A stretch of DNA of 62,573 bases. Origin: Arenimonas fontis (GTDB taxonomy: Bacteria; Pseudomonadota; Gammaproteobacteria; Xanthomonadales; Xanthomonadaceae). Positions 23,253 to 62,573 of this stretch are shown here, in pieces (the first letter of the stretch is position 1; each line of letters starts with the position of its first letter). The notes under the pieces are model-generated. The model was given only the letters and a program-made list of their open reading frames with translations. It had not been told where the DNA came from and did not search any database. The DNA is taken from contig NZ_VUOD01000011.1 of assembly GCF_008386465.1 (NCBI RefSeq), positions 1 through 62,573 of the forward strand. Direction: 5' to 3'. The position numbers and the translations under genes were made by a program.

Positions 23253-23912
<660 letters not shown>

Positions 23913-34603: not shown

Positions 34604-34668
34604 GGGTCAGACCCCCTACCCTGAGCCTGGGGTCAGACCCCTGACCTGGAGCCGCTGCTCCGACCCCG
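34604..34668. repeat. GGGGTCAGACCCC repeats and an 18-bp dispersed repeat
   Basis: GGGTCAGACCCC (34604-34615) and GGGGTCAGACCCCTGACC (34629-34646) are near-palindromes that can each form a hairpin. They are followed by GCCGCTGCTCCGACCCCG (34651-34668), which recurs exactly at 49953-49970 upstream of another gene. The core word GGGTCAG also occurs at 137-143, 61.3 kb and 62.4 kb. The set looks like a dispersed intergenic repeat family, perhaps REP-type remnants; no transposase for it is visible. Confidence 0.7.
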
Positions 34669-47997: not shown

Positions 47998-49200
47998 ATG
48001 CGCAACGCCGCGATGGTGTTCGTGTTCATCGTGGTGCTGCTGGACATCCTGGCCTTCGGCCTGATCATCCCCGTCCTGCCGCACCTGATCGAGCAGTTCG
48101 TCGGCGGTGATACCGCCACCGCCGCGCGCTGGGTCGGGGTGTTCGGCATGGTGTTCGCGGCGGTGCAGTTCGCCTGCGCGCCGATCCAGGGCGCGCTGTC
48201 GGACCGCTTCGGGCGGCGGCCGGTGATCCTGCTGTCCTGCCTGGGCCTGGGCCTGGACTTCATCCTGATGGCGGTGGCGCAGTCGCTGCCGCTGCTGTTC
48301 ATCGGCCGGCTGATTTCCGGTGCCACCGCCGCCAGCTACTCCATCGCCAACGCCTACATCGCCGACGTGGTGCCGCCGGAGCGGCGCGCGCGCGCCTACG
48401 GCCTGCTTGGCTCGGCTTTCGGCCTGGGCTTCATCGTCGGTCCGGTGGCGGGCGGCCTGCTGGGCGACATCGACCTGCGCCTGCCGTTCTGGGTGGCGGC
48501 GGGCCTGGCCCTGGGCAACTTCGGCTACGGCCTGCTCGTGCTGCCGGAATCGCTGCCGCCGGAGCGGCGCAGCGCCCGGGTGGACTGGCGCCATGCCAAT
48601 CCCCTGGGCGCACTGGCGCTGCTGCGCCGCTATCCGCAGGTGCTGGGCCTGGCGACCGTGGTCCTCCTGGGGGCGCTGGCGCACTACGTGTTTCCCAGCG
48701 TGTTCGTGTTGTTCGCCGACCACGCCTACGGCTGGGGCATCCGCGAGGTCGGCTATGTGCTGGCGGCGGTGGGCGTCTGCACGGCCATCGTCCAGGCCGG
48801 GCTGATCGGCCGCATCGTCGCCGCCATCGGCGAGCGCAGGGCGCTGCTGCTGGGCCAGGCCGCCGGTCTGGGCGGGTTCGCGCTGTACAGCATCGCGCCC
48901 AGCGGCGCCTGGTTCCTGGCCGGCATTCCGGTGATGGCGTTCTGGGGCCTGGCCAATCCCTCGCTGCAGGCCCTGGCCACCCGTCGCCTGGGGCCGGACG
49001 TGCAGGGACGGCTGCAGGGCGCCTTCATGAGCCTGGCCAGCCTGGCGGGTATCGTCGCGCCGGTAGTGTTCAGCCAGGTGTTCGCGGCCTCGATCGACGG
49101 CAGCCTGGGCTTCGAATTCCCGGGCGCGCCCTTCGCCCTGTCCATGCTGATCGTGGGCCTGGCGCTGTGGGTGTCGGAGCGGGCCAGCCGGCCGCGCTGA
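47998..49200 (+). CDS. MFS transporter, TetA-like drug exporter family
   Basis: This 400-residue protein has twelve helices. The DHA1 motif D-G-R-K/R appears as [12 protein letters not shown] near residue 65, and the TetA-type [14 protein letters not shown] is in the first helix. [12 protein letters not shown] is the antiporter motif in helix 5. It is a proton-driven exporter, probably of a drug or metabolite; nothing indicates tetracycline specifically and no TetR gene is beside it. It starts three bases after the methyltransferase and is cotranscribed. Confidence 0.9.
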
Positions 49201-60319: not shown

Positions 60320-61237
60320 ATGCCACCAGCCATGGCCTTGGACGCCTTCGCCCTGATCTTCGCCATGCTGGCCCTTGGCCTGTTGTTCCGGCGCCTGCAC
60401 TTGCTGCCGGAGAACGCCGGCGAAGTGCTCAATCTGGTGGTGCTCTACGTTTGCCTGCCGGCGGCGGTGCTGCTATACGCGCCACGGCTGCGGCTGGAGC
60501 CGGCCCTGCTGGCGGTGGCCGCCGTGCCCTGGCTGTTGCTGGCCGTGGTGGTGCCACTGGTGGCCCTGCTGGTGCGTTGGCTGCACCTGCGTCGTGACGA
60601 AGGGGCGGTGCTGCTGCTCTGCCTGGCCCTGGGCAACACCAGCTTTCTCGGCTATCCGCTGGTGCGGGCACTGCTGGGCGAGGAGGCGTTGCCGTACGCG
60701 GTGGTCTACGACCAGTTCGGCGCCTTCCTGATCCTGTCCACCTTCGGCCTGTACGTGCTGGCGCGCTACGGCGGCGACCACGAGCCGGGCTGGCGCGACA
60801 TGGCGCGGCGCATCGTCACCTTCCCGCCCTTCCTGGCCATGGTGTTCGGCCTGACGCTGATGCCGTCGGATCCGCCGGCCTGGATCGCCGGCGGACTGCA
60901 GCGTCTGGCCGACGCCCTGCTGCCGCTGGTGGTGCTGGCCATCGGCCTCGGCCTGCAGCTGCGGCTGCCGCTGGACGAGCTCAAGCCACTGGCGGCCGGC
61001 CTGGTGTCCAAGCTGTTGCTGTTGCCGCTGGTGGCCTGGGGCCTGGTGTGGCTGCTCGGCGTGCAGGGCACGATGCGCGACGCGGTGGTGCTGGAGTCGG
61101 CGATGCCGCCGATGGTCACCGCCGCCGCGCTGGCCATCTCCCACCGCCTGGCGCCACGCCTCGCCGCGGCCCTGGTCGGCTACGGCATCCTCCTTTCTCT
61201 GCTCAGCCTCCCCGCCTGGACTGCCGTCCTCCGCTGA
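60320..61237 (+). CDS. AEC family transporter (auxin efflux carrier type)
   Basis: This 305-residue protein has ten helices in two halves. The half-repeats carry the AEC pattern: LNLVVLYVCLPAAVLLY near residue 38, GNTSFLGYPLVRALLG near 108, and in the second half LPLVVLAIGLGLQLRLP and ESAMPPMVTAAALA near 262. Bacterial members export or import small organic acids such as malate or malonate. ACGGAGACGC precedes the ATG. It is divergent from ggt with a 119-base gap. Substrate unknown. Confidence 0.88.
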   Translation: MPPAMALDAFALIFAMLALGLLFRRLHLLPENAGEVLNLVVLYVCLPAAVLLYAPRLRLEPALLAVAAVPWLLLAVVVPLVALLVRWLHLRRDEGAVLLLCLALGNTSFLGYPLVRALLGEEALPYAVVYDQFGAFLILSTFGLYVLARYGGDHEPGWRDMARRIVTFPPFLAMVFGLTLMPSDPPAWIAGGLQRLADALLPLVVLAIGLGLQLRLPLDELKPLAAGLVSKLLLLPLVAWGLVWLLGVQGTMRDAVVLESAMPPMVTAAALAISHRLAPRLAAALVGYGILLSLLSLPAWTAVLR

Positions 61238-61248
61238 CCCGCCAACAC

Positions 61249-61282
61249 CTGACCCTTTGTTCTGACCCTTTGTTCTGACCCC
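61249..61282 (-). repeat. Left 13-bp GGGTCAG-type repeat pair
   Basis: Two tandem copies of CTGACCCTTTGTT (61249-61261 and 61262-61274) are followed by CTGACCCC. Read on the minus strand the unit is GGGTCAGAACAAA, one base from the unit of the right-hand array at 62447. It therefore faces that array in inverted orientation across the unknown gene. Confidence 0.8.
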
Positions 61283-61370
61283 AATATCTGGCGAGTGATG
61301 GAAGCCGGGTAGTGCGCGGAAGGGGGAGTGTGGCATGGTCGGGGCGTCACCCAGGCAGGAAGGAACTGGC

Positions 61371-62417
61371 ATGAGAAAGGTCGTGAAAGCCCTGGTGCTG
61401 GCGCTGGCCTGCGGCGTGGCCGCGCCTGTCATGGCGGAGGAAGCACTGGCGACCGATCCGGCCCGGCAGCAGGCCATGACCCGCTACTACCTCGCCGCCG
61501 CAGAAGCCGAGGGTGAGCCGATCTCCGACCTGATGCTGCTCGAGATGCTGCGGCCGGATAGTGGCTTCATCGCCGAGCCGACCGAAGCGGCCCAGGCCGC
61601 GCGCCTGCAGCTGGTCCGCCGCCGGCTGGAAGCCCGTGTCGAGGCCGCCAGCCGGCATGACCCGGCCGTCCTGGCCCAGCGCCTGGGCTGTGACGGCCAA
61701 AACGTCAATACCGAGACTTGCGTCCGCAATCTGGACCACCTGGCCGAACTGGCCGGCGACAATGCTTACTACCACCTCGTGGGCATGTCCTACGCCTGGA
61801 TGCGCAACGACGCCGAGCGCTTCTTCCGGCACGCTGAACTGGCCGCTGTCGCCCCGGAGTACAAGCCGGAGATCTGGCGTCACCTGGATGCCTATCGCGA
61901 TCGCCTGCGGCACGCCCCGGTACAAATGCTGCCCGAACACGCGGAAAACCCCGCGCTTCCGCTGTCGGACATCCAGGCGATGAGCCTGGCTGCGGCGGTC
62001 GCCCTGCCCGCCTTCCACTACTTCAGCCAGCCCTGCCGGGAAGCCGAGGGCCAGCTGCGCCAGCATTGCCTGGCGATCGCCATGAAGATGGTCGGGCAGG
62101 ACGATTCCCTCATCGACCTGTACATCGGCGAGTCCGTGGTGCGCGCGTTGGGCGACGAAGCGCAGAAGACCTGGGCCCGCGAGCGCCGTCGAGGGGCCGC
62201 CTGGCTGACGGAAGCGATCACACCCGTGCTCGCCGACATCGAGGGCGATCCCGAGGCCATCGTTACCTACTTCGACCTGTTGACGGGCGAAGGCGAACTG
62301 GCGGCCATGCGCTGGATCGCCGAAACCCGGGGTCTGCCGGTCACACCGCCGGCCGACTGGGTCGACCGCAGCGAGCGTGAGCGGACCGCCGGCGACGCAC
62401 CGAAGGCCCCTCGCTGA
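61371..62417 (+). CDS. Secreted protein of unknown function
   Basis: This 348-residue protein has a signal peptide (RKVVKALVLALACGVAAPVMA), so it is probably periplasmic. The mature part is helical and contains CDGQNVNTETCVRNLDHLAELAGDNAYYHLVGMSYAWM in pieces that recall Sel1- or TPR-like helical repeats; four cysteines fall in two pairs (about 114/122 and 235/243). No catalytic motif or named family was recognised. AGGAAGGA precedes the ATG. It is flanked on both sides by 13-bp repeat arrays in opposite orientation, which might mark it as a movable or recombination-prone cargo. Confidence 0.7.
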   Translation: MRKVVKALVLALACGVAAPVMAEEALATDPARQQAMTRYYLAAAEAEGEPISDLMLLEMLRPDSGFIAEPTEAAQAARLQLVRRRLEARVEAASRHDPAVLAQRLGCDGQNVNTETCVRNLDHLAELAGDNAYYHLVGMSYAWMRNDAERFFRHAELAAVAPEYKPEIWRHLDAYRDRLRHAPVQMLPEHAENPALPLSDIQAMSLAAAVALPAFHYFSQPCREAEGQLRQHCLAIAMKMVGQDDSLIDLYIGESVVRALGDEAQKTWARERRRGAAWLTEAITPVLADIEGDPEAIVTYFDLLTGEGELAAMRWIAETRGLPVTPPADWVDRSERERTAGDAPKAPR

Positions 62418-62433
62418 CTGAAACCAGAGTCAG

Positions 62434-62573
62434 GGGTCAGACCCTGGGGTCAGATCAAAGGGTCAGATCAAAGGGTCAGATCAAAGGGTCAGATCAAAGG
62501 GTCAGATCAAAGGGTCAGATCAAAGGGTCAGATCAAAGGGTCAGATCAAAGGGTCAGATCAAAGGGTCAGATC
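62434..62573 (+). repeat. 13-bp tandem array, runs off the window end
   Basis: GGGGTCAGACCC (62434-62444) leads into nine full tandem copies of GGGTCAGATCAAA starting at 62447 and a tenth cut by the window end. The copies are exact, indicating recent expansion. No spacers, so not a CRISPR. The unit differs by one base from the inverted repeat pair at 61249-61274. Confidence 0.95.

Follow-up and report, generated by a model that had tools for sequence, protein, structure and literature searches.

What are the two arrays of a 13-bp repeat that face each other across a single gene at the end of this contig, and what brought them there? The window, meaning the whole stretch of 62,573 nucleotides analysed here, is the whole of contig C3 of the Arenimonas fontis genome, and for that reason the right-hand array is truncated where the contig stops. 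The locus, together with a more distant tract of repeats, comprises the following features:

34604 to 34666, plus strand: degenerate repeats of the GGGTCAGACCCC type, lying between divergent genes
60332 to 61237, plus strand: gene for a PF03547 membrane transport protein, a conserved neighbour (alternative start 60320)
61249 to 61281, minus strand: left array, a 7-bp partial unit from 61249 and two exact GGGTCAGAACAAA units (61256 to 61268 and 61269 to 61281), GGGG head towards the secreted-protein gene
61371 to 62417, plus strand: secreted-protein gene (348 aa, signal-peptide-like start), the only ORF between the arrays; upstream alternative start at 61335
62418 to 62446, plus strand: spacer 3' of the secreted-protein gene's stop, containing the degenerate unit GGGGTCAGACCCTG
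62447 to 62573, plus strand: right array, nine exact GGGTCAGATCAAA units (62447 to 62563) and a 10-base partial unit, continuing past the contig end

These exact copies confirm what the first-pass annotation had described, namely facing arrays of two units on the left (minus strand) and at least nine on the right (plus strand) around one gene for a secreted protein of no recognised family; neither Pfam (above cut-off) nor NCBIfam (at E ≤ 0.1) assigns the protein to a family. A search allowing up to two mismatches located 11 unit sites in the window, all 11 exact, while shuffled sequences gave a mean of 2.85 and a largest count of 7, so that none of 100 shuffles reached 11. The left array begins 11 bp past the stop codon of the transporter gene. 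The degenerate repeats at 34604 to 34666 are possibly relics of a related element. Elsewhere in the window, positions 23432 to 23628 hold long GCC/CGC triplet runs and runs of CGCCGCCGG.

One reading of this geometry, also raised in the first-pass annotation, is that of a small mobile cassette in which the secreted-protein gene travels between two inverted arrays, and the same bracketing does recur around a transposase gene described below. The secreted protein, however, is matched in 12 of 60 other genomes (13 loci), where the transporter gene lies beside the homologue at nine loci, the AAA-like gene found at the end of contig C28 likewise at nine, and the order transporter, secreted-protein gene, AAA-like gene is kept at eight, two of these being overlapping loci of one genome. 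GGGGTCAG is absent, on both strands, from all 13 loci, including the eight with both neighbours, and a similar two-unit array stands alone in the genome, with no bracket, at C23:58617. The conserved gene order and the relatives' loci free of GGGGTCAG, an outcome that the first-pass annotation had itself named as refuting its idea, rule out a cassette carrying this gene for practical purposes, and we grant that reading scarcely any probability. The secreted-protein gene is an ordinary resident outside the element, bracketed only because two such elements occupy its two flanking spacers.

Gene order in relatives places the far end of the right array at the end of contig C28, where the AAA-like gene, convergent with the secreted-protein gene, has its stop codon directly beside the array tail. 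The convergent stops of the secreted-protein and AAA-like genes are 7, 1, 1 and 0 bp apart in relatives' loci L156, L157, L158 and L160, 31 bp apart in L162, −4 in L165 and 623 in L159; because they nearly touch in several relatives, the right array sits where those relatives have almost no intergenic DNA. The names AAA-like, release-factor-3-like, HemY-like (for a 415-aa protein), thiolase-like and glutamyltransferase-like, are presumptive designations that we gave to these genes from their sequences.

The repeat is a genome-wide family, as a search for the unit that the first-pass annotation had suggested made plain: GGGTCAGANCAAA is present in 160 copies (49 forward, 111 reverse) in the 2.63-Mb, 32-contig genome, while the same sequence read backwards gave 0 forward and 0 reverse, and the exact two-unit tandem occurs in none of the 60 relatives searched. 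Taking as a run any series of at least two TC[CT]GACCC units at a spacing of exactly 13, we found 30 runs of 2 to 12 units in 19 stretches (420,373 bases) that hold 154 of the 160 units, the other 6 falling outside. The exactness of the copies makes the recent amplification claimed for the locus plausible, without dating it. A typical array has the head GGGGTCAGA, which reads GGGTCAGA where two heads join at CCCTAGGG, and the tail GGGTCAGATCA or a near form. Several arrays are head-to-head pairs, often with one arm long and the other short; an intact short form, located at C28:195093-195144, is perfectly palindromic, its arms each having two units and reading GGGTCAGAACAAA then GGGTCAGATCA, and it folds in a fold computation. 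Of the contig ends read, those at the end of C3 and the starts of C23, C27 and C28 carry heads, and those at the starts of C4 and C7 and the ends of C6 and C28 carry tails, with about 124 to 128 bp of array in each; four arrays whose length defeated the assembler would leave this pattern. A replication-strand bias is no more than possible: when GC skew is taken locally over 20-kb stretches, its sign matches the long arm's strand in 12 of 16 cases, by a hand tally in which some arms are ends of the same array. Units with a GTAAA spacer (GGGTCAGAGTAAA) are mixed with the genome's own type at C1:4234-4317 and C23:72697-72717, and other families of the order (G042, G070, G211) have arrays of this form too.

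A Pfam search with PF01797 identified one Y1_Tnp gene in the genome (C23:47450-48112, 220 aa), whose product carries the motifs HVH (HUH) and YIELNP (Y---NP), as defined in the available portion of PMC6006769. Against the NCBIfam model NF047646, REP-associated tyrosine transposase, the protein scores 85.2 bits, barely above the cut-off of 80, and against the IS200 model 28.8 bits, under the cut-off of 55. The gene is bracketed by inverted arrays at C23:47293-47352 (minus strand) and 48184-48217 (plus strand), in the same geometry as in the window, with the array heads facing the gene, the opposite of most homologues. The first-pass annotation had proposed looking for a RAYT/Y1 transposase, and its suggestion of a REP-type enzyme is right in kind, the genome's single Y1_Tnp gene being array-bracketed and narrowly over the family cut-off.

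Homologues of this protein are frequent: of 397 genomes from the order, 304 contain a match, the protein's own genome among them. Flanks were compared for the 32 Y1 genes in 29 other loci that are the best matches among the 303 other genomes with a match: an inverted repeat of 12 bp or more is shared by the two flanks of 22 of the 32 genes, whereas the controls gave 3 of 93 for swapped flank pairs and 0 of 32 for shuffled ones. In this best-matching set GGGTCAG lies upstream and CTGACCC downstream (heads outward) of 19 of the 32 genes, and the reverse pair (heads inward) surrounds two. The C-terminus of the Y1 protein departs from the end common to most homologues, and no helix-turn-helix was found in it (Pfam at E ≤ 1 gives only Y1_Tnp); on these grounds the protein may be impaired.

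Of 26 readable tails, 16 have TGA before TCTGACCC (or TCCGACCC), 6 have TGT and 4 have some other triplet; two tails (C3:61261 and C4:119) adjoin a degenerate outer unit and so represent internal junctions. Internal junctions likewise read TTTGA followed directly by TCTGACCC, so that the boundary as placed here could be wrong by a few bases. A gene 3' end, by codon-usage gene calls as opposed to curated annotation, lies within 40 bp of 18 of the 26 tails: the stop codon ends exactly at the array in six, its TGA falls within the first unit in five, and it is 9 to 23 bp away in seven. Thus 11 of the 18 coincide with a stop codon, whereas by a rough calculation with two fixed offsets out of about 41, roughly one of the 18 would be expected to do so; 15 of the 26 tails share none. 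Stops also fall within the repeat at two single-unit arms, C23:50709 and C27:248816, and at the degenerate outer unit on C4, all of them outside the 11.

Relatives provide array-free counterparts of two such junctions. At the stop of the AAA-like gene, the plus strand reads TCA GTCGGCGGG in L158 and GGGTCAGA TCA GTCGGCGGGG here, so that the array looks, by this comparison, to abut the native TGA. Between the gene for the 415-aa protein on C28 and its convergent neighbour, L289 reads TGA acc TCA where this genome has TGA directly followed by TCTGACCC; the stops overlap in L286, L290 and L302, and spacers reach up to 1,233 bp in other relatives. At both junctions, to judge from these alignments, the TGA is host sequence. 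Two other relatives, L285 (G004) and L288 (G020), carry other GGGGTCAG palindromes, heads outward, at the convergent-stop junction of the 415-aa gene, as though elements came to land repeatedly at junctions of this kind. In this genome the release-factor-3-like gene has other sequence in place of the final residues and stop codon found in relatives. Truncation of host genes was not seen when the NadC-, YfiH-, RsmE- and DPP4-like proteins were compared with PDB relatives, whose end points differ by no more than two residues for the last three and by up to about 7 to 9 residues for the NadC-like protein; for a PhzF-like protein, full-length PDB matches stop 4 to 22 residues short of its end.

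We interpret the arrays as non-autonomous TIR/REPIN-like elements of the genome's one TIRYT-like Y1 transposase, docked at TGA and grown in tandem, a reading to which we assign a rough probability of 0.72. The elements are dispersed, bracket the Y1 gene, mostly abut TGA with their tails, and have TGA junctions free of arrays in relatives at two sites; mobilisation by the Y1 protein and the mode of array growth are what we infer. In outline, the Y1 protein, now or recently, would set the TCTGACCC end of the element beside a TGA; insertions would survive mainly at gene 3' ends, with the stop codon kept or supplied by the element; and one arm would then extend by 13-bp steps to ten or more units, through replication slippage or through repeated docking at the TGA recreated by each unit (TTTGA before TCTGACCC). 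A bolder version, in which the enzyme itself adds the units without slippage, each ending in TTTGA and so rebuilding the target in a self-priming array seeded by a stop codon, seems to us possible but rather unlikely.

Plain minisatellites, expanded by slippage of a 13-bp unit from GGGTCAGA-like seeds with no transposase involved, would account for the exact copies, the variable number of units (2 to 12) and the variation of tandem periods among genomes. Slippage explains neither the dispersal of the family, nor its palindromic head-to-head pairs, nor the ends at TGA, and the core is common to the TIRs of the 19 outward-flanked genes in the best-matching set; we therefore doubt that it is the whole explanation, and it may be the growth route of copies already dispersed. 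A further alternative, that these are selected functional elements of gene 3' ends, either hairpins ending transcripts or the protein-binding arrays that the first-pass annotation had entertained, draws on the 18 of 26 tails with a gene 3' end no more than 40 bp away, on the strong RNA fold of the right array (−54.3 kcal/mol, z −10.0) and on stops in all frames of the tail-inward strand of the unit, the opposite strand having none. The left array, however, has no RNA fold (z 0.96), periodic repeats inflate fold scores, and the arrays are missing from all 60 relatives searched and so are not a conserved function; selection of this kind appears improbable.

Docked elements of a Y1 transposase, as we prefer to regard them, have close counterparts among described systems. 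The part of PMC3733652 available to us defines TIRtrons, TIRYTs and dispersed TIR families, with GGGGWSAS as the TIR motif of Y1 TIRYTs, and the array head GGGGTCAGA or GGGGTCAG matches that motif. As presented in the available portions of PMC3733652 and PMC6006769, these systems resemble the present one in having a Y1 gene between inverted GGGGWSAS repeats, with related repeats scattered through the genome as singles, pairs and clusters; here, in contrast, the repeats are 13-bp units in tandem arrays that can reach ten or more copies, the heads point towards the Y1 gene, and the Y1 protein has no detectable C-terminal helix-turn-helix. In the same portion of PMC6006769, 20 of 26 TIRYTs belong to subclass 2.1, which is marked by a helix-turn-helix domain at the C-terminus and for which no REP-like sequences were found; with no Pfam helix-turn-helix and a divergent C-terminus, our protein is not filed in that subclass. 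REPs and REPINs with their RAYTs, in the parts of PMC2817692 and PMC3116915 considered here, are likewise short palindromes found mainly outside genes and accompanied by one Y1 gene, and their inverted pairs form hairpins; they differ in their GT[AG]G tetranucleotide next to the palindrome, absent from the unit here, in that what is tandem here is 13 bp and not a whole REPIN with flanks, and in that the stop here is TGA and not TAG. Stop codons from REP termini and tandem REPIN clusters are already published: REPs lie close to gene 3' ends and their GTAG termini often supply a TAG stop (PMC3733652, in part), and clusters of whole REPINs are described in the text seen of PMC3116915. TnpAREP cleaves between C and T according to the available part of PMC8266576, with which the junction TGATC/TGACCC here would, by analogy, be compatible. 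IS200/IS605 elements have the Y1_Tnp Pfam family (PF01797) in common with this system and differ from it in that the dispersed elements here carry no transposase gene and the Y1_Tnp gene is single-copy in the genome. The idea of docking beside a short target is also common to both. An 8-mer literature search of one open library returned nothing relevant by title among the matches listed.

Of 397 genomes from the order, 10 have three successive GGGTCAGA motifs with gaps of 0 to 12; this genome is one of the 10, with 127 hits against 19 in the next. With gaps of 0 to 24, the corresponding figures were 10 of 369 genomes of the class, again including this one, 130 hits and 15. Periods varied in the latter search, and a universal 13-bp period is accordingly rejected. 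A scan of GTDB contigs with the period fixed at 13 by the pattern recovered the triple in 49 stretches from several phyla, of which a number could have matched by chance within coding sequence and from which this genome's own contigs were perhaps left out; many of the 49 are inverted pairs with heads outward. One genome, G211 (L034, L047, L055), has 13-bp GGGTCAGA arrays with 19 triple hits and no Y1 match in an assembly that is 87% complete. Given a homologue in 304 of 397 genomes against triple tandems in 10 of 397, and the arrays of G211 without a homologue, the gene alone does not predict arrays.

What is unusual in this genome is the strongly expanded 13-bp tandem form of a TIR/REPIN-like element, often placed on stop codons. 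Short-read assemblies break at such arrays, as four here apparently did. Repeats of TIRYT-type Y1 transposases are little described in the literature surveyed, insofar as its available parts cover them, and with a defined element end (TCTGACCC), a TGA neighbour, two array-free sites and a single candidate enzyme in one small genome, their cutting, docking and growth are directly testable.
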